This document shows, one piece after another, positions 47,652-59,949 of a stretch of 64,000 nt of DNA (within the stretch, counting starts at the first letter, position 1; each line of letters begins with the position of its first letter). Source of the stretch: Arthrobacter sp. S41 (GTDB lineage: Bacteria > Actinomycetota > Actinomycetes > Actinomycetales > Micrococcaceae). The position numbers and the translations under genes were made by a program. A model generated the notes under the pieces. It saw only the letters and a program-made list of their open reading frames with translations. It made no database searches and was not told the origin of the DNA. The stretch spans positions 372,001-436,000 of the forward strand of contig NZ_SIHY01000002.1 of NCBI RefSeq assembly GCF_004320535.1, in the 5' to 3' direction.

Positions 47652-47696
47652 GCGTATCCTTCCGTAGGCGCCTCGTTGCCAAGGCGGGTGGTGTGC

Positions 47697-47765
47697 AAAC
47701 CCAGGCGCGCGGCTCGCACGATTAGCTCCCCGGTGGTTACCCACCTAACGCCAGTCACGCGTTCC
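47697..47765 (-). ncRNA. ZTP/ZMP riboswitch (pfl motif) of folD
   Basis: On the minus strand the conserved elements come in order: CGTGACTGGCG (47749-47760), GTGGGTAACCAC then CGGGGAGC (47725-47744), and GCGCGCCTGGG (47700-47710). These match the pfl motif, which binds ZTP/ZMP, the purine intermediate that builds up when 10-formyl-THF is short, and it commonly precedes folD in Actinobacteria. The 46-nt stretch to the GTG holds a CGCCT/AGGCG hairpin and the ribosome binding site with no T-run, suggesting translational control. Confidence 0.88.
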
Positions 47766-47822
47766 AGTGTAGCGAAAATCGGTTCGGGAATGAGAGCGCA
47801 GTGCGCAGGGTTACCTTTGGAT

Positions 47823-52091: not shown

Positions 52092-53330
52092 TTACGCGGT
52101 AGCGAAGGCGGATGCGCTCTGCCGGGTCCTTTGGGTTACGGGCTTGGCCGCGGATCGCGAGGCGTTCGACGCTGCGCGGGCGGCAAGCAGTCCACGTTCC
52201 AGATCGGCGATCAGATCTTCGACCTCTTCGATGCCCACCGAGAGGCGGACCAGGTTGGCCGGGATCTCCAGTTCGGTGCCAATCAGCGATGCGTGAGTCA
52301 TTTCGCGCGGATAACAGACCAGCGATTCCACCCCGCCTAAGGAGACCGAGAGCTGGAAGTACTCCATGGATTCAGCGAAGGCGCGGGCGCCGGCTTCATC
52401 GGTGAGCTGCAGCGAAACAATGCCGCCAAAACCGCGCTGCTGGCGCTTGGCCAGTTCGTGCCCGGGGTGGGTTTCCAGACCCGGGTAGTACACGCGGGTC
52501 ACTTCTGGCTGCGCGTCAAGCCAGCGGGCCAGCTTATCGGCGGTGGAACAGTGACGTTCCATGCGCAGGCCCAGGGTTTTCAGTCCGCGGGCGGCCAGGT
52601 AGGAATCCTGCGGTCCGGCCACCGCACCGCCGGCAAACTGCTGATAGCCGACCGCTTCGGCCAGGGACTGGCCGCGGAAGAGGTGATCGGCCACAATTAC
52701 CGCACCACCGAGCACGTCGGAGTGCCCGCCGATGTACTTGGTGGTGGAGTGAACTACCGCGTGCGCGCCGAAGTCCAGCGGACGCTGTAGATAAGGGGTA
52801 GCGAAGGTGTTATCAACCACCAGCAGCGCACCAATTTCCTTGGCCAGCTGGGCCCAGCCGGCTAGATCGGCGATGCCAAGCAGTGGGTTGGACGGGGTTT
52901 CCACCCAGAGCAGGGCGGTATTGGGTTGCAGTGCAGCTCGCACCGAATCCAAGTTGGTGATGTCCACCGCCGAGGAGGTGATGCCCCATTTGCTGTGCAA
53001 TTTGGAGATCAACCGGTTGGTGCCGCCGTAACCGTCGGCGCCCAGAACGATGTGATCGCCCGGTTCCAGCACGGCACGCAGCAGCGCATCTTCGGCGGCG
53101 ATACCTGAGGCGAAGGCAAAACCGGCCGCGCCGTTTTCTAGGATGGTGAGCTGGTCTTGGAAACCATCTCGAGTGGGGTTGGAGCCGCGGGAGTATTCGT
53201 GCCCGGATCGCAGTACGTTAATACCGTCCTGGATGAAGGTGCTGGTCTGGTAGATCGGCGGAACAACCGCGCCGGTGTGTGGGTCTTTTTCCTGGCCTGC
53301 GTGTACGGCCTGAGTGTTGAAGCCAGTCAT
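52092..53330 (-). CDS. metB: cystathionine gamma-synthase-like PLP enzyme
   Basis: About 412 aa Cys/Met-metabolism PLP enzyme. The phosphate-binding YSRGSNPTRDGFQDQL (about 48-63) and PLP-lysine motif HSTTKYIGGHSDVLGGAVI (Lys about 192) are canonical, with ESPSNPLL-like WVETPSNPLLGIADL. It condenses an activated homoserine with cysteine to cystathionine, or acts as a gamma-lyase. Substrate specificity is not readable. Two adjacent ATGs occur at 53333 and 53330; the second gives better spacing from AAGGAG. It overlaps the upstream metY-like stop. Confidence 0.88.
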   Translation of the reverse strand: MTGFNTQAVHAGQEKDPHTGAVVPPIYQTSTFIQDGINVLRSGHEYSRGSNPTRDGFQDQLTILENGAAGFAFASGIAAEDALLRAVLEPGDHIVLGADGYGGTNRLISKLHSKWGITSSAVDITNLDSVRAALQPNTALLWVETPSNPLLGIADLAGWAQLAKEIGALLVVDNTFATPYLQRPLDFGAHAVVHSTTKYIGGHSDVLGGAVIVADHLFRGQSLAEAVGYQQFAGGAVAGPQDSYLAARGLKTLGLRMERHCSTADKLARWLDAQPEVTRVYYPGLETHPGHELAKRQQRGFGGIVSLQLTDEAGARAFAESMEYFQLSVSLGGVESLVCYPREMTHASLIGTELEIPANLVRLSVGIEEVEDLIADLERGLLAARAASNASRSAAKPVTQRTRQSASAFATA

Positions 53331-54631
53331 CATGCTCCTTGAGTTTGTGGGGCCAGGGCCCGGTTTAGTGCATTATCAAGCGCGCGGTTCAGGTCTGCGA
53401 GCAGATCCACAGGATCTTCAAGCCCGACCGAAAGGCGCAGGGTGGAGGCGTTCAGGCCAGCGTCGGCCAACTGATCGGCCGAGAGCCGGCAATGGGTCAT
53501 GGTGGCCGGGTGCAAAATCATCGTGCGGGTGTCCCCCACGTTCGCGGCCAAACTGATCAGTTCTAGCCCATCAATCACCGGGGAAACTAGCGACGGGTGT
53601 GCCAACTCGATGGCCAGCACGCAGCCGGTGCCCTTGGGGGTGAGCTGTTGGGCCACGGTGTGGCTCGGGTGGCTGGATTGTGAGGGGTGATGGATGGCCG
53701 CGATGCCCGGGTGGCCGGAGAGCTCTTGGATCAGGGTGCTCACGCTGCGCTGTACATGCGCTGCACGCACCGGCAAAGTTTCGATGCCGGCCAAAATGCC
53801 TTGGGCGCTGGCCGGAGCTAATGCCGGACCTAGATCGTGCAGGAACTTGGAACGCACCAGCATCGCATAGGCAGCAGAGCCGTGGCGTTCGAGCAAGGAA
53901 GTATTGTTCAACCGCACGCGTGGGGCGGCAATCTGTGGCCAACGCAGCGGATCGGAGAAGTCGAACTTTCCCGAATCCACCACCACGCCGCCAAGTACCG
54001 AGCCGTGGCCGGCCAGACCCTTGGTGGCCGAGTGGACCACAATATCCGCGCCAAAATCTAGTGGGCGGAAGTTCAACGGGGTGGCCAGGGTGTTATCCAC
54101 GACCACCGGGATGTTGTGCTCGTGGGCGATCGCCGAAATAGCGGGAAGATCGGCCACCGTGCACAGCGGGTTGGACACGGACTCTAGGAAAAACGCGCGG
54201 GTCTCATCCTCGATGGCCCCGGCCCAGGCTGCCGGATCGGCTTGGTCAACAAAGCTGACGCGGATGCCAAAGTCGGCGAAGGAGTCGGTCAGTAGGTCCA
54301 CCGTGCCGCCGTATAGCGAGGAAGACGCCACAATGTGCTTAGGTCCCTGGGTCAGCGCCAACAGGGACAGTGAAACAGCTGCCTGTCCCGAGGCGGTGGC
54401 CACCGCCTGAGCTCCACCTTCCAGCGCGGCTACACGCTGCTCGAGGATCGAAACGGTGGGGTTACCGGTGCGTGAGTACGTGAACCCGGACTGGCGCATA
54501 GCGAACTTTTCGATCGCTTCAGCATGGGATTCAAATTGGTACGCTGCGGAGTTATGTAGTGGTGGCAGCATCGGGCGGAAATCTCCGCTTGGTCGATACC
54601 CTGCGTGGACCGCGTCGGTTCCTTGGCTCAT
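53330..54631 (-). CDS. metY: O-acetylhomoserine sulfhydrylase-like PLP enzyme
   Basis: About 433 aa. The N-terminus TDAVHAGYRPSGDFRPMLPPLHNSAAYQFESHAEA leads to YSRTGNPTVSILEQRVAALEGG, and the PLP Lys lies in HSATKGLAGHGSVLGGVVVD (about 200). This is the MetY/CysK-independent branch, expected to make homocysteine from O-acetylhomoserine plus sulfide. A PLP-dependent cystathionine synthase or lyase is the alternative. ATG 54631 has AAGGAG two bases upstream; the frame is open to 54715, which is riboswitch territory. The SAM riboswitch leader supports a methionine-cycle role. Confidence 0.85.
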   Translation of the reverse strand: MSQGTDAVHAGYRPSGDFRPMLPPLHNSAAYQFESHAEAIEKFAMRQSGFTYSRTGNPTVSILEQRVAALEGGAQAVATASGQAAVSLSLLALTQGPKHIVASSSLYGGTVDLLTDSFADFGIRVSFVDQADPAAWAGAIEDETRAFFLESVSNPLCTVADLPAISAIAHEHNIPVVVDNTLATPLNFRPLDFGADIVVHSATKGLAGHGSVLGGVVVDSGKFDFSDPLRWPQIAAPRVRLNNTSLLERHGSAAYAMLVRSKFLHDLGPALAPASAQGILAGIETLPVRAAHVQRSVSTLIQELSGHPGIAAIHHPSQSSHPSHTVAQQLTPKGTGCVLAIELAHPSLVSPVIDGLELISLAANVGDTRTMILHPATMTHCRLSADQLADAGLNASTLRLSVGLEDPVDLLADLNRALDNALNRALAPQTQGA

Positions 54632-54659: not shown

Positions 54660-54742
54660 TGCACCGAAAGATGTAACCCGTACCAAAGCCCGAACACTGA
54701 CTTGGTACGAGGCACAGTGCGCTTAAAAGCGTTCGGAACTGC

Positions 54743-54830
54743 TCCATCGTCCCTGGCATTAGCACCTTTCGGTTTCCCGATGGTTGCTGCGACGTCTTCG
54801 AGCCAGATCTCTTAGTCGCTCTTGATGGTT
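54743..54830 (-). ncRNA. SAM riboswitch upstream of metY
   Basis: On the minus strand the order is ACCATCAAGAGCGAC (P1 5' side), AGATCTGGCTCGAAGAC, GTCGCAGCAACC, AAGGTGCTAATGCCAG and GATGG (P1 3' side, CCATC/GATGG). The GCAGCAACC and GGTGCTAAT...CC elements match the S-box/SAM-I core. It probably binds S-adenosylmethionine and shuts off metY-metB. A further hairpin, CGTACCAA/TTGGTACG at 54679-54709, follows and may be the switching element. SAM-IV shares this core, so the class is not certain. Confidence 0.82.
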
Positions 54831-54886
54831 TGTTGTTCTTCCATGGTTCGATATCTGCCCCGGGCGGTGCAAGCGGCATCGGGCTC

Positions 54887-55055: not shown

Positions 55056-55997
55056 TTAGCCCAGCACCTCAACGTCAAAGCTGGCGACCACCGCACGCAC
55101 TTCTTCCAAATAACGCTGCGCTTGATCGGTGAGCGGGATCCCGGCGTGGTCGATCCAACCGATCTCGATTCGCTCGTCGATGGACAGCGGGATGGCAACG
55201 ATGGAGGGATCAAGCTCGTCGCTGATGATGCCGGTGGAGATGGTGTACCCGCCCAAGCCGATCATGAGGTTAAAGATCGTGGCGCGGTCCGAGACTTGAA
55301 TTTCGCGTTGGCTTGAACGGGTGGAGAGCACCTCTTCGGAAAAGTAGAAGGAGTTGTTTGCACCCTGGTCGAAGGTAAGCCGCGGCAGGTCCTCGAGGTC
55401 TTCAAGCGTCACCTGTGCACGCGAGGCCAGCGGGTTGCTGCGCGAAATAAAAATGTGCGGATCGGCCAAGAACAGCGGATGGAAGACAAGCCTGGATTCG
55501 CGCAGCAGCTTGTCGATCACTTTCCGGTTGAAGTCGTTGCGGTACAAGATCCCAATGTCGCTACGTAGAGTGCGTACGTCCTCGATGATTTCCTCAGTGC
55601 GGGTCTCCCGGAGCGAAAATTGGTACTCCTCTGCGCCGCTGGCCTGAACCATGCGCACAAAGGCATCAACCGAAAATGAGTAGTGCTGCGTGGAGACACC
55701 AAGCAAGCGCCGAGCCGAAGGCCGGCCGAGGTAGCGATGTTCAAGAAGCTCCACCTGCTCCAGGACCTGGCGTGCATAACCCAGGAATTCTGCCCCCTCG
55801 GGGGTGAGTGTCACTCCCCTTGCGGAGCGGACCAACAGGGTGCGCCCCACTCGTGCTTCGAGCTCTTTCATGGCCGCGGACATGCTGGGCTGCGCGACGT
55901 AAATTAGGTCGGCGGCACCGGAGATGGAGCCCTCGGTAGCGACCGCGGTGAAGTAGCGAAGCTGTTGCAATGTTAAACCGCTTGTTCCTTGAACCAT
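55056..55997 (-). CDS. LysR family regulator divergent from mesX-mesD
   Basis: 313 aa. An N-terminal HTH (about 8-66: TLQQLRYFTAVATEGSISGAADLIYVAQPSMSAAMKELEARVG) is followed by a LysR substrate domain (about 95-300). It is transcribed away from mesX with an inverted repeat at 55999-56017 directly upstream of its ATG. CysB, MetR and Cbl are LTTRs that control sulfur and methionine genes; whether this is an orthologue of any cannot be decided from sequence. It is the likely regulator of mesX-mesD-flavin reductase and possibly of itself. Confidence 0.88.
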   Translation of the reverse strand: MVQGTSGLTLQQLRYFTAVATEGSISGAADLIYVAQPSMSAAMKELEARVGRTLLVRSARGVTLTPEGAEFLGYARQVLEQVELLEHRYLGRPSARRLLGVSTQHYSFSVDAFVRMVQASGAEEYQFSLRETRTEEIIEDVRTLRSDIGILYRNDFNRKVIDKLLRESRLVFHPLFLADPHIFISRSNPLASRAQVTLEDLEDLPRLTFDQGANNSFYFSEEVLSTRSSQREIQVSDRATIFNLMIGLGGYTISTGIISDELDPSIVAIPLSIDERIEIGWIDHAGIPLTDQAQRYLEEVRAVVASFDVEVLG

Positions 55998-55998
55998 A

Positions 55999-56043
55999 GA
56001 TTCAGTCTATATGAATCCATAGTTATATCGAGTTACCTGATAT
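55999..56043. promoter_or_regulatory. LTTR-type operator between the LysR gene and mesX
   Basis: GATTCA at 55999-56004 and TGAATC at 56012-56017 form a 19-bp palindrome containing a T-N11-A LysR box. A second inverted repeat, ATATC-N9-GATAT, lies at 56025-56043. The two could be recognition and activation sites of the divergent LysR protein. Confidence 0.5.
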
Positions 56044-56118
56044 CAATGAAGACCCTGCATGATGGACGCATCGACTTACTTTCGGCCTGCCCAGGCCCTC
56101 ATCACAAGATTGGCCGCC

Positions 56119-57111
56119 ATGGCAGACGAGCTCACTTTCAGCATTAGCACCACCAAATTCGACGAGAATTACACTCCCTGTGCCACCTCACGAGTGACCA
56201 CAAACTTCGCAAATCTGGCCCGCGGCGAGAACCGCCAACAGAACCTGCGCAACGCCCTGACGATGATCAACCGTCGCTTCAATTCGCTGGCTCACTGGGA
56301 CAATCCTGCCGGCGATCGTTATGAGCTCGAACTGGAAATCATCTCGGCCAACGTGCATTTTGCCGCCGAGAATGAAGAGCAGGATTTTCCGCTTCTTGAA
56401 GTTCTAGACACCATCGTTGTCGACCGCCTCACCGGTACCCGTAGCCATGGCATGGTGGGCAATAATTTCTCTTCTTACGTCCGCGATTATGACTTCAGTG
56501 TGGTGCTTCCGGCGGCCAGCAACGGCTCGGGTGCTCCTAAGTTACCTGAAGATTTCGGCGACCTTCACGGCCAGCTCTTCCAGCATTTCTTGGATTCGGA
56601 AGCCTACCAGCAGCGTTTTAACCAGTTGCCAGTGGTCGCCATCAGCGTCTCCACTTCCAAAACCTACTACCGCACCGGCAATAGTCACCCAGTCCTTGGC
56701 TTGGAATACCAGCAGGACGAGAACTCCCTGACCGATACCTACTTCGGCAAAATGGGTTTGCAGGTGCGCTACTTCATGCCTGCAGGTTCCGTAGCTCCAC
56801 TGGCTTTCTACTTCCGTGGCGATCTACTCAATGACTACACCAACCTGCAGTTGATCAGTCTGATTAGCACCATGGAGACCTTTCAGAAGATCTACCGCCC
56901 CGAGATTTACAACGCCAATTGTGCTGCCCCGTCGGTCTACCGTCCAAGCCTGAGCGCTCAGGACTTCGCTCCGACTCGGATCGACTACGACCGCGAAGAA
57001 CGCACCCGACTCGGAGCTAGCCAGGGTAAGTACACGCAGGAGCACTTCATCATCCCTAATCAAGAATTGCTCAACCAATTTTCCGCCACCTGCCCAACTC
57101 CTGTCGCCTGA
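56119..57111 (+). CDS. mesX: DUF1852 protein, MesX (required by the core methionine synthase MesD)
   Basis: 330 aa from ATG 56119, which matches the usual family start (ADELTFSISTTKFDENYTP then RVTTNFANLARGENRQQNLRNALTMINRRFN). The frame is open from 56059 and neither start has a clear ribosome binding site. DUF1852 proteins are encoded next to MesD; genetic work shows MesD needs a DUF1852 partner and oxygen for methionine synthesis. I recognise no cofactor motif. The conserved core includes FPLLEVLDTIVVDRLTGTRSHGM and VVAISVSTSKTYYRTGN. It is likely involved in supplying or generating the methyl group. mesD starts 17 bp downstream. Confidence 0.9.
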   Translation: MADELTFSISTTKFDENYTPCATSRVTTNFANLARGENRQQNLRNALTMINRRFNSLAHWDNPAGDRYELELEIISANVHFAAENEEQDFPLLEVLDTIVVDRLTGTRSHGMVGNNFSSYVRDYDFSVVLPAASNGSGAPKLPEDFGDLHGQLFQHFLDSEAYQQRFNQLPVVAISVSTSKTYYRTGNSHPVLGLEYQQDENSLTDTYFGKMGLQVRYFMPAGSVAPLAFYFRGDLLNDYTNLQLISLISTMETFQKIYRPEIYNANCAAPSVYRPSLSAQDFAPTRIDYDREERTRLGASQGKYTQEHFIIPNQELLNQFSATCPTPVA

Positions 57112-57128
57112 GAATCGAAAGATAAACG

Positions 57129-58169
57129 ATGACTTCAAAGCTAATTCCAACCTCAATCGTCGGCAGCCTCCCCAAGCCTTCATGGCTGGCCCAACCTGAG
57201 ACCCTGTGGTCCGATTGGAAGCTCCAAGGTTCCGAGCTGAGCGAAGGAAAGCAAGATGCCATGCGCGCTGCCGTACTGGAGCAGACTCAGCGTGGCATCG
57301 ACATCATTAGCGATGGCGAACAGACCCGTCAGCACTTCGTCACAACCTTCATTGAGCACCTGAGCGGTGTTGACTTTGAAAAGCGTGAGACCGTGCGCAT
57401 CCGCAACCGCTACGACGCAAGCGTGCCCACTGTTGTTGGTGCAGTAGAGCGAAAAAAGCCAGTATTTGTTGACGATGCAAAGTTCCTGCGTTCATACACT
57501 GACAAGCAGATTAAGTGGACGTTGCCTGGCCCAATGACCATGGTGGACACCTTGTATGACGCTCACTACCAGAGCCGCGAAAAATTGGCCTGGGAGTTCG
57601 CTACCATCCTGAATCAGGAAGCCAAGGAACTCGAAGCCGCTGGAGTGGATGTCATCCAGTTCGACGAGCCAGCGTTCAACGTCTTCTTTGACGAAGTTGC
57701 TGACTGGGGCATCGCAGCGCTGGAGCGCGCATGCGAAGGGCTAAAAGCTGAAACCGTCGCTCACATCTGTTTCGGTTACGGCATCAAGGCCAATAACGAT
57801 TGGAAGGCCACCCTCGGAGCTCAGTGGCGCCACTACGAGAAGTCCTTCCCACTGTTGCAGGCTTCAACCATCAACACCGTATCTTTGGAATCGCACCACT
57901 CCAACGTGCCGATTGAAGTCGTTGAGATGGTCCGCGGCAAGAAGGTCATGCTCGGCGCCATCGATGTGGCCAGCGAAACCGTTGAAAGCCCAGAAGAAGT
58001 CGCACAGACCCTGCGCAAGGCGTTGGAATTTGTGGACGCGGACAAGCTGATTGCGAGCACCAACTGTGGCATGGCACCGTTCCCTCGCGACACTGCGCTG
58101 GCAAAGCTCAGCGCTTTGAGCGCCGGAGCGTCCATCCTGCGCGAGGAGCTCGTCGGTGCCAGCGTCTAA
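57129..58169 (+). CDS. mesD: core methionine synthase MesD (MetE C-terminal-like)
   Basis: 346 aa, about half the length of MetE (about 750 aa), lacking the N-terminal folate-binding half. It begins IPTSIVGSLPKPSWL (homocysteine-site G-S-x-P), then VIQFDEPAFNVFF at about 176-187. Zinc ligands are H212 and C214 (AHICFGYG), a plausible E237, and C313 (STNCGMAPFPR). The homocysteine-activating zinc site is thus present. Together with DUF1852 it defines the MesD family: methionine from homocysteine without 5-methyl-THF or cobalamin, in aerobic bacteria. The methyl donor is not established. It overlaps the flavin reductase by 14 bp. Confidence 0.9.
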   Translation: MTSKLIPTSIVGSLPKPSWLAQPETLWSDWKLQGSELSEGKQDAMRAAVLEQTQRGIDIISDGEQTRQHFVTTFIEHLSGVDFEKRETVRIRNRYDASVPTVVGAVERKKPVFVDDAKFLRSYTDKQIKWTLPGPMTMVDTLYDAHYQSREKLAWEFATILNQEAKELEAAGVDVIQFDEPAFNVFFDEVADWGIAALERACEGLKAETVAHICFGYGIKANNDWKATLGAQWRHYEKSFPLLQASTINTVSLESHHSNVPIEVVEMVRGKKVMLGAIDVASETVESPEEVAQTLRKALEFVDADKLIASTNCGMAPFPRDTALAKLSALSAGASILREELVGASV

Positions 58170-58704
58170 GGTCACCATCGACGCTACCGATTCGCTGTCC
58201 GCGGATGACTTCAAAGCTGTCTTCCGCGGACATCCGGGTGGTGTCAGCGTCATTACGGCAGATGCTGGCGACGGGCCCGTTGCGCTCACTGCCACCTCGG
58301 TGGCATCAATCAGCGTTGATCCACCGCTATTGGTCTTTTCGATCTCGGCGTTATCTTCGGCTGCCGACGTTCTTTCTCGTGCGGCAACGATCGTCGTTCA
58401 TAGCCTGGATGTGCACGACCTTGAGGTTGCCAAACTGGGTGCAACCAGCGGCATTGACCGCTTCGCACAGAGCCAGTCGTGGACACGTTTAAGCACCGGC
58501 GAAACGGTGTTTGACAACGTCCGTGCGTGGGTCCGCTGCGAAGTTATTGAACGGATTCAGGCCGGAACTTCCACGGTGATTGTTGCCCGCGCTCTGCAGG
58601 CGCACATTGAACGTGATGCTCAGCCGGGCGAACTTGGTGACGCGTTGGTTTACCACAACCGTTCGTGGCATCACCTCAACGAAAATTCACGCCTAAACGG
58701 TTAA
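58156..58704 (+). CDS. flavin reductase-like protein next to mesD
   Basis: 182 aa, HpaC/flavin reductase-like FMN-binding split-barrel. FRGHPGGVSVITA, GPVALTATSVASISVDPPLLVFSI and DVHDLEVAKLGATSGIDRF are the family's flavin-site segments. It would supply reduced FMN or FAD to an oxygen-using partner, consistent with the oxygen requirement of MesD/MesX systems, though this pairing is inference. A GTG start at 58156 lies inside mesD (14-bp overlap), which argues for coupled translation. Last gene of the operon. Confidence 0.85.
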   Translation: MPASKVTIDATDSLSADDFKAVFRGHPGGVSVITADAGDGPVALTATSVASISVDPPLLVFSISALSSAADVLSRAATIVVHSLDVHDLEVAKLGATSGIDRFAQSQSWTRLSTGETVFDNVRAWVRCEVIERIQAGTSTVIVARALQAHIERDAQPGELGDALVYHNRSWHHLNENSRLNG

Positions 58705-58770: not shown

Positions 58771-59949
58771 TTAGTGCTTGGTCGACTTTCGACGTCCGAG
58801 AGCAACAAAGACCGCACCGGCAAGGGCCACCAGCAGCCCCGCTACTCCAGCGGTGACTCCGTCAAAGCCAGTGTTCGCCAGTACTGGTGTTGCGGAGTCG
58901 GCGCTCTTCTTTGTGTCTTGCTTCTTAGCCGAAGGCGCTGCACTGACATCACCGGCAGGCTCGATTTCTGCGCTAGCCGACGCAGATTCACTCTCCGATG
59001 GAACCATCTCCTGATCAGTTTGTGGTTCGTCGATATCATCGTCTTCTTGCTCCGGCTGGATCCCGAAGAACAATTCAAGGTAGTACGCTCGCAGTTGGGG
59101 ATTATGGGCAAAGACTTCTTCGAGGAACGCCTGGAACTCAGTGGCGTCTTCATCGCTTTCGATACTTTCGGCGATGAATGGCAGCATCAGGTCAAGCAGT
59201 TCGAGGCCTTGGTCGGTGCTTAAGTAAGCTTCCCACTGGGCTTCATCCCAGTCGAAGCTTTCCTCGGGAAGAAGGTCGGTAATGGACTCCCAGAAAGCCA
59301 GCTCTTCGTCGGAAAGCTCGGATTCTTCGTCCCAGATGTCATCTTCAGCAAACAATTCGTCAAGAAGACGGTTCATCTCCTGCCCGGCTTCAGTTTGCTC
59401 GAAAGCTTCCCATTGAGCTTCGTCCCAATCCTCGCTGCCCTCAGGCATCAGAGCATCGATTTGGGCCCAGCGAGGGTCTTCGTCCTGGTCTGCAACGTCC
59501 GTTGGCGTGCTCGTGGACTCTGCTGACTCACTTGCTTCGGCGGTAACCTCCGTTGTGGCTTCGGGCTCCGGGGCCGACGAGGATTCTGCCACCATAGGCT
59601 CAGATTTGGCGGCCTCATCGGGCTGGCCAGTTTGTGTCTCCGAGGGCTCAGGTGTCGGGGAAATAGCAGGTTCTGACGTTGCGGTTTCGACAGGCTCTTC
59701 TACATCTGGAATCGCTTCTGACTCAGTCGAAACGACGGCCACTTCTGATTCGATGACTTCTTCTACAGGCGATTCCGGTGCAACAGTAACGACGACTGGC
59801 TCCGTCGGAGAGTCAACTGACGCTGAAGATTCAGCTGGACTCGAATTGGCCTCGTCCGTAACCACTTCTGCATTTGCTGCCGGGCCACAAAGCACCAATC
59901 CTGAGATTAGTGCAGTGGACATTGCTGCCGTGCCTAATTTAGTTTTCAA
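58771..59949 (-). CDS. LAxTG-type sortase-anchored acidic surface protein
   Basis: 392 aa. A signal peptide (about 1-27, ending AANA) is followed by an acidic Ser/Glu/Pro/Thr region (28-155). Two related modules follow: WAQIDALMPEGSEDWDEAQWEAF (about 161-183) and WESITDLLPEESFDWDEAQWEAY (about 220-242), each ending in a leucine/acidic helix. The C-terminus has LANTG at 357-361, a hydrophobic helix and a basic tail RRKSTKH, the layout of a cell-wall sorting signal of the LAxTG (class E sortase) kind. No sortase gene lies in the window. Adhesin or regulatory role unknown. Low-complexity acidic composition is unlike all neighbours. Confidence 0.8.
   Translation of the reverse strand: MKTKLGTAAMSTALISGLVLCGPAANAEVVTDEANSSPAESSASVDSPTEPVVVTVAPESPVEEVIESEVAVVSTESEAIPDVEEPVETATSEPAISPTPEPSETQTGQPDEAAKSEPMVAESSSAPEPEATTEVTAEASESAESTSTPTDVADQDEDPRWAQIDALMPEGSEDWDEAQWEAFEQTEAGQEMNRLLDELFAEDDIWDEESELSDEELAFWESITDLLPEESFDWDEAQWEAYLSTDQGLELLDLMLPFIAESIESDEDATEFQAFLEEVFAHNPQLRAYYLELFFGIQPEQEDDDIDEPQTDQEMVPSESESASASAEIEPAGDVSAAPSAKKQDTKKSADSATPVLANTGFDGVTAGVAGLLVALAGAVFVALGRRKSTKH

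Follow-up and report, generated by a model that had tools for sequence, protein, structure and literature searches.

According to Price et al. 2021 (PMC7857596), MesD and MesX form a methionine synthase for which both proteins and oxygen are required, while MetF and cobalamin are not; the oxygen requirement and the independence from MetF and B12 rest on experiments in Acinetobacter, Sphingomonas, and Escherichia coli, and in aerobic E. coli the two genes are sufficient. The same paper names actinobacteria such as Paenarthrobacter aurescens TC1, which has MesD as its sole methionine synthase, reports that the pair often has a putative flavin reductase gene in its vicinity, and already predicts that MesX uses a flavin. 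Among the papers listed in searches of the open-licence literature, which include two from 2025 on core methionine synthases (PMC12366255 and PMC12478193), we found no later one giving the substrate or cofactor of MesX; subscription papers and preprints were not covered. Our subject is the corresponding locus in a 64,000-nucleotide stretch of Arthrobacter sp. S41 (the window; contig NZ_SIHY01000002.1, positions 372,001 to 436,000), where mesX and mesD are followed by a flavin reductase (FR) gene. The window operon is a well-preserved member of the published system, and methionine in this host, a soil actinobacterium, is probably made by the already described oxygen-dependent, folate- and B12-independent pair. 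Comparative evidence that we did not find in print in the open-licence literature now strengthens the link to flavin. We favor, with fair confidence, a joint reading in which MesX and MesD are the main methionine synthase of the host, MesX depends on reduced flavin, and the linked FR is a replaceable helper.

The mesX gene (56119 to 57111, plus strand) encodes a DUF1852 protein ("putative oxygenase MesX") that matches PF08908 over its full length (553 bits, cutoff 25; model positions 1 to 323 of 323). An in-frame ATG lies upstream, at 56059, but is probably not the mesX start, because the Pfam match opens at residue 21 of the longer frame, that is, at 56119, and this start is conserved among relatives. 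The mesD gene (57129 to 58169, plus strand) begins 17 nucleotides (nt) after the mesX stop, and the FR gene (58156 to 58704, plus strand) begins at a GTG within mesD, overlapping it by 14 nt; from this spacing, we infer a single transcript for all three. FR, the proposed replaceable supplier of reduced flavin, belongs to PF01613 (93 bits, cutoff 27) and scores below the curated NCBIfam equivalog cutoffs for RutF (65.2 versus 254.75) and HsaB (64 versus 230); it therefore represents a distinct subfamily.

MesD (346 amino acids) is a core methionine synthase without a folate domain. It matches PF01717 (134.8 bits, cutoff 21), the NCBIfam methionine synthase equivalog PRK09121 (627 bits, cutoff 392), and PDB entry 3RPD (560 bits), which is termed a MesD in PMC7857596. 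It is homologous to the catalytic half of the cobalamin-independent methionine synthase MetE (TIGR01371, 104 bits over model positions 406 to 753); unlike MetE, it falls far under the 930-bit MetE cutoff and lacks the N-terminal folate half (PF08267, 20.6 bits, under the cutoff of 27). The zinc ligands H212, C214, and C313 are in place, and comparison with the HCEC set described in PMC7857596 makes E254 the likely fourth ligand. S13, E64, and D179 are predicted homocysteine residues, placed from S22, E73, and D188 of 3RPD by assuming a constant offset of 9. An initial annotation of the window had described a DUF1852 gene, an enzyme matching only the catalytic half of MetE with the three zinc ligands intact, and a flavin reductase gene as one operon with a 14-bp overlap; our coordinates and hidden Markov model (HMM) searches agree with it throughout. 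It had also stated that MesD-family enzymes need MesX and oxygen and do not need methyl-tetrahydrofolate (methyl-THF) or cobalamin, which PMC7857596 reports for relatives; by analogy with these, the window pair would share the same properties.

For comparison, we named the best 80 of at least 581 confirmed loci (62 actinobacterial and 18 other, with a lean toward close relatives), each a stretch of up to 6 kb on each side of mesX, some ended by contig ends. In all 80, mesX directly precedes mesD on the same strand; the pairing is therefore not due to chance. P. aurescens TC1 (L045) is of the same family and shares the mesX-mesD-FR order and the divergent lysR gene of the window, differing in sequence divergence only (MesX 71% identical). 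Acinetobacter baylyi (ACIAD3523/3524, with flavin reductase ACIAD3522) and Sphingomonas koreensis resemble the window, according to PMC7857596, in the pair itself, in its zinc and homocysteine residues, and in a nearby reductase; both, however, also have MetH, which the window genome lacks. The window operon further differs from those of A. baylyi and S. koreensis in its divergent lysR gene and mesD-overlapping FR gene. The initial annotation had viewed the operon as extending the system to three components in an actinobacterium, but TC1 and the reductase neighbors are already named in PMC7857596, so this claim is not new; an actinobacterial three-component operon is largely in print.

Methionine synthases in the host, genus, and family

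Two observations support identification of the pair as a MesX/MesD methionine synthase, in line with the assignment first proposed for it: the families to which the proteins belong, and the lack of MetE, MetH, and PF02219 MetF. The window genome (3.47 Mb, 99.99% complete) contains one PF08908 match and one PF01717 match, the latter being MesD itself. Profile searches of this genome gave no match for MetE, for the MetH activation domain (PF02965), or for PF02219 MetF; a flavin-independent methylenetetrahydrofolate reductase (MTHFR) of the MSMEG_6596 type was not searched for. The initial annotation had raised the prospect of a full-length metE or metH elsewhere in the genome, and neither was found.

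Within the genus, MesX occurs in 15 of 16 genomes, all 15 of which lack full-length MetE, MetH, and PF02219 MetF. The one genome without MesX, G127, has MetF and a full-length MetE (909 bits, just under the 930-bit cutoff). When 18 genus genomes were searched for MetE, G127 alone gave a full-length match; each of the remaining 17 gave a partial, MesD-like one. The genes for MetE and MetF adjoin in G127, an apparent swap of methionine synthase system inside the genus.

More widely, MesX is patchy: it is present in 36 of 245 genomes of the family and in 3 of 396 sampled from the phylum (window genome included). Among the 38 MesX-positive genomes (these 36 plus G559 and G586), 35 lack both MetH and a MetE above cutoff; the MetH matches are confined to G236 and G586, both with an in-frame TGA. 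PF02219 exceeds its cutoff in 7 of the 38, four of these matches being weak (32 to 50 bits). In most sampled species of the genus, MesX and MesD are the only de novo synthase recognized, and PF02219 MetF is missing too; such a genus offers a clean test bed.

The window genome does encode a homocysteine S-methyltransferase, with one PF02574 match of 242 bits covering the full domain, and such a match is present in 9 of the 15 MesX-positive genus genomes, the window genome included; this counts against any absolute claim that the pair is the sole synthase. Methionine could then come mainly from the PF02574 enzyme or from uptake rather than from MesX and MesD. Enzymes of this family, however, use S-methylmethionine or S-adenosylmethionine (SAM), and hence provide no net de novo methionine. 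Moreover, PF02574 is absent from 6 of the 15 genomes, and the MesX-less G127 has MetE and MetF instead. We regard such a source as highly improbable and retain the mesX-mesD operon as the main methionine synthase of the host, as one part of the joint reading.

Flavin reductases beside mesX and mesD

A reductase gene adjoins mesX-mesD in 31 of the 80 named loci. A PF01613 reductase gene follows mesD in 22 of the 62 actinobacterial loci and 3 of the 18 others, while in 6 of these 18 (four Xanthomonas, Stenotrophomonas, and Burkholderia) a gene for a PF03358-type, MsuE-like flavin mononucleotide (FMN) reductase precedes mesX. The PF03358-type proteins score 294 to 336 bits to their Acidovorax counterpart, and the Pfam assignment to PF03358 was made on the Acidovorax protein only. 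Gaps between the pair and the reductase gene reach ∼0.54 kb (Burkholderia), which leaves room for a small gene between them. All but one of the 32 reductases detected in the named-locus stretches adjoin the pair, the exception (L054) lying beyond lysR; the search used five reductase queries at an E value of 1e-5, and remote types are missed. Among 12 plasmid loci, hand-picked for diversity out of 209 records with a match (11 of the 12 non-actinobacterial, with an incomplete gene table), four have a reductase: PF01613 in Acinetobacter, Thioclava (truncated), and Paracoccus, and PF03358 in Acidovorax. With 18 named loci and 11 of these plasmid records, the sampling outside the actinobacteria is the thinner part of the survey.

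These reductases have several origins. We built a tree of 45 PF01613 proteins, of which 17 are linked to mesX-mesD. The linked proteins require four label changes on it, at least three of which are forced by strongly supported branches, and a single clade for the linked proteins is rejected (delta log likelihood of 207.6; approximately unbiased test, P = 3.9e-43). The rows of this tree were hand-chosen and some branches are long; L108 (a near copy of L112) and the truncated Thioclava protein (L158) were left out. The nearest unlinked relatives differ among the types: those of the window type are Micrococcaceae reductases, that of the Acinetobacter type is RutF, that of the Paracoccus type is a Xanthobacter FR, and that of the Rhizobium type is an FR of Agrobacterium vitis. 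The linked reductases thus comprise about four PF01613 lineages plus the unrelated PF03358 (MsuE-type) proteins of Xanthomonas, Stenotrophomonas, Burkholderia, and Acidovorax. With the Acinetobacter lwoffii plasmid locus L154 standing in for A. baylyi, MesX and MesD are 59% and 73% identical to those of the window, whereas the linked FR, which belongs to another PF01613 lineage than the window FR, is only 25% identical. As for the eight unlinked FR relatives, four are encoded directly beside a flavin monooxygenase gene, two a few genes away from one, and one in a rut operon; the last has no such neighbor.

The repeated recruitment of unrelated reductases beside mesX-mesD suggests that MesX uses reduced flavin. 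On this comparative genomic evidence, reduced flavin is probably a missing ingredient of the MesX/MesD reaction. With unrelated reductases repeatedly and separately placed beside the pair, what was a guess about flavin in the literature becomes a specific prediction, testable with purified proteins. Two published expression tables point the same way: in Acinetobacter baumannii supplied with B12, the DUF1852 gene ABUW_3198 (log2 change of −8.3) and the flavin reductase gene ABUW_3196 (−2.5) are both down (PMC12892962), and in Xanthomonas oryzae an "FMN reductase" gene, PXO_RS02070 (−2.57), and the DUF1852 gene PXO_RS02075 (−2.53) shift in the same direction (PMC7698356).

We consider next a strict three-component enzyme, in which FR would be an obligatory, specific subunit. 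The 14-nt gene overlap is consistent with it, as is the distribution of close FR types: among the 245 family genomes, the 14 best FR matches (at least 250 bits) are all in MesX-positive genomes, ∼2 kb from the mesX start and beside mesX-mesD, and the next match, at 195 bits, is in a MesX-negative genome. In this family, therefore, the FR subfamily goes with mesX-mesD. The reverse does not hold: 22 of the 36 MesX-positive family genomes have no FR match of at least 250 bits, and in the genus the linked FR is intact in 10 of 15 MesX-positive genomes. Of the five without an intact copy, two (G075 and G095) show no FR at the site, and three (G023, G051, and G238) retain remnants only. None of the five has a full-length MetE or MetH, and the three with remnants also lack PF02574. 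The G023 remnant consists of two short pieces in different frames, on a contig that ends ∼640 bases past mesD; that of G238 is weak (33% identity over 76 residues; E value of 4e-4). The longer match in G051 contains an in-frame TGA, and its identity of 42%, against 72 to 90% for intact genus copies, makes decay likelier than sequencing error. Loss of FR while the pathway stays argues against an obligate subunit. So do the sufficiency of mesD and mesX in E. coli (PMC7857596) and the divergence of the A. lwoffii FR despite its well-conserved MesD. The three-component enzyme is largely refuted.

Two expectations of the initial annotation are affected. Its proposed neighborhood survey upheld mesX-mesD, kept in every named locus, but not the reductase as a conserved third component, for which both the named loci and the genus provide too many exceptions. 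Its suggestion that the reductase supplies reduced flavin gains from the several reductase origins and from the two expression tables as regards flavin involvement; the idea that FR is a fixed part of the system does not survive.

Three further observations concern individual loci. L108, titled Bacillus subtilis SK6B4, has a mesX-mesD-FR locus whose FR is near-identical to that of Pseudochrobactrum L112, and is probably a mislabeled or contaminated assembly. L154 (A. lwoffii) and L160 (Robbsia) both have a gene for QueH (epoxyqueuosine reductase) less than 4 kb from mesX. L154 also carries a gene for a protein with an MTHFR C-terminal domain.

Predicted fold of MesX and the proposed reaction

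An AlphaFold2 model of MesX, computed from 43 sequences (the window plus 42 of the 80 named loci), has a pLDDT of 90.4 and a pTM of 0.90. Foldseek found no match to this model at an E value of 0.001 either in the PDB (best E value, 0.086; TM, 0.14) or among viral models, and a sequence search for a solved relative found none (best E value, 0.17). The predicted model did not match the TIM-barrel or acyl-CoA dehydrogenase folds of group C and D two-component flavin monooxygenases, although known folds of external flavin monooxygenases would be expected to have scored against it. With no PDB match, MesX would either have a new flavin-enzyme fold or not be a flavin enzyme at all, and so confident a model without a PDB match makes it a good target for structure determination.

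We propose for MesX the role of an oxygenase or oxidase that depends on reduced flavin and has an unrecognized fold; it would take FMNH2 (or FADH2) and O2 and oxidize a small metabolite. The resulting methyl group, bound to MesX or held in a small carrier, would be transferred to homocysteine whose thiolate is bound to the zinc of MesD. Flavin for MesX would be reduced with NAD(P)H by the linked FR, for which other cellular flavin reductases could substitute; FR would then be a helper rather than a third essential subunit. The arrangement resembles that of two-component flavin monooxygenases (HpaB/HpaC, SsuD/SsuE, and MsuD/MsuE), in which an oxygen-dependent partner is encoded beside a PF01613 or PF03358 reductase; the reductases of such systems can be shared or replaced. 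MesX differs in matching no PDB fold at the above threshold and in that its product must be a methyl donor.

Several points weigh against this proposal. Neither the sequence nor the predicted fold of MesX resembles that of a known flavin enzyme; no reductase was detected beside mesX-mesD in 49 of the 80 named loci (two of which hold FR remnants and one an FR gene beyond lysR); an intact linked FR is missing from 5 of the 15 MesX-positive genus genomes; the PF02574 enzyme discussed above is present; and generating a methyl group by oxidation is awkward chemistry. The first three would be accommodated if MesX and MesD were the synthase and MesX a non-flavin (for example, metal-dependent) oxygenase, the reductase serving in iron reduction, in redox repair, or with another sulfur-related monooxygenase co-regulated with methionine genes. 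A single MsuE-type reductase has indeed been reported to feed many sulfur monooxygenases (PMC13352529). A non-flavin MesX is harder to reconcile with the adjacency of two unrelated Pfam reductase families and several PF01613 lineages to mesX-mesD, and with the same-direction shifts of both genes in the two published tables. We judge it a serious but rather unlikely alternative, and continue to favor a reduced-flavin-dependent MesX.

A more speculative version, to which we assign very little weight, makes flavin itself the methyl carrier: MesX would oxidize a central metabolite with reduced flavin and O2, the one-carbon unit would be captured and reduced on flavin N5, and the methyl group of the resulting N5-methyl dihydroflavin would be passed by MesD to zinc-bound homocysteine. 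If true, this would explain both the recurrent recruitment of reductases and the missing folate domain of MesD; N5-methylflavin would replace the N5-methyl of 5-methyl-THF, and flavin would join folate and cobalamin as a third type of methyl carrier.

Flanking genes and the mesX leader

A LysR-family regulator gene, assigned by Pfam (55056 to 55997, minus strand), diverges from mesX and is kept beside it in actinobacteria; of the 62 actinobacterial named loci, 61 have it divergent and one (L104) has it on the same strand. The 18 non-actinobacterial loci yielded no LysR like that of the window (>400 bits). The intergenic region (55998 to 56118) holds a putative operator, a putative promoter, and, by alignment of leaders, a conserved mesX leader (56055 to 56121, with the same site in 71 actinobacterial loci) containing a short GGCC-loop-GGCC hairpin. 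A nearly invariant GATTGG lies just ahead of the mesX start, at the position expected of a ribosome-binding site. The palindrome ATTCA-N7-TGAAT between lysR and mesX was rejected as a conserved operator, since among 118 loci (five duplicates) it is exact only in the window genome.

Across the 72 aligned leaders, 92% of cells pair in the hand-named 5-bp hairpin, 17 changes are two-sided, and none of 500 shuffles scored as high. Because the structure was derived from the same sequences, which favors the hairpin, we note it and make no claim of a structured RNA; that candidate was rejected, as RNAalifold gave no consensus on the 72 leaders and the window's mesX leader contains no Rfam match. Nine of the 81 distinct leaders were kept out of the alignment: L118 and L132 have no leader of this kind, L051 and L065 lack the hairpin region, and L075, L078, L080, L084, and L085 have a divergent or shifted start.

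Beyond lysR lie genes for two pyridoxal phosphate (PLP) enzymes, both assigned by Pfam and NCBIfam: an O-acetylhomoserine sulfhydrylase-like enzyme of homocysteine formation (53330 to 54631, minus strand), whose start codon is uncertain (the open reading frame as listed extends to 54715; the probable ATG is at 54631), and a cystathionine gamma-synthase-like enzyme (52092 to 53333, minus strand), whose gene overlaps the former by 4 nt. Homocysteine formation and methylation are thus encoded side by side. A SAM (S-box) riboswitch (54741 to 54831, minus strand; 58.7 bits, gathering threshold 44.4) precedes the two genes; it is also present in L034 and was not found in L045, L052, L058, or L070. 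Elsewhere in the family, two other genus groups (L132, L138 to L142, and L147 to L149) have two homocysteine-forming PLP genes upstream of mesX on the same strand, likely in one operon with it, and no LysR of the window's type was detected.

Elsewhere in the window, a ZMP/ZTP riboswitch at 47692 to 47768 (minus strand) scored just over its gathering threshold (40.4 versus 39). A gene at 58771 to 59949 (minus strand) encodes an acidic, Glu/Ser/Thr-rich, secreted-looking protein in which we noted by eye a LANTG-like C-terminal motif, a hydrophobic stretch, and a basic tail; in this it resembles a sortase-anchored surface protein.

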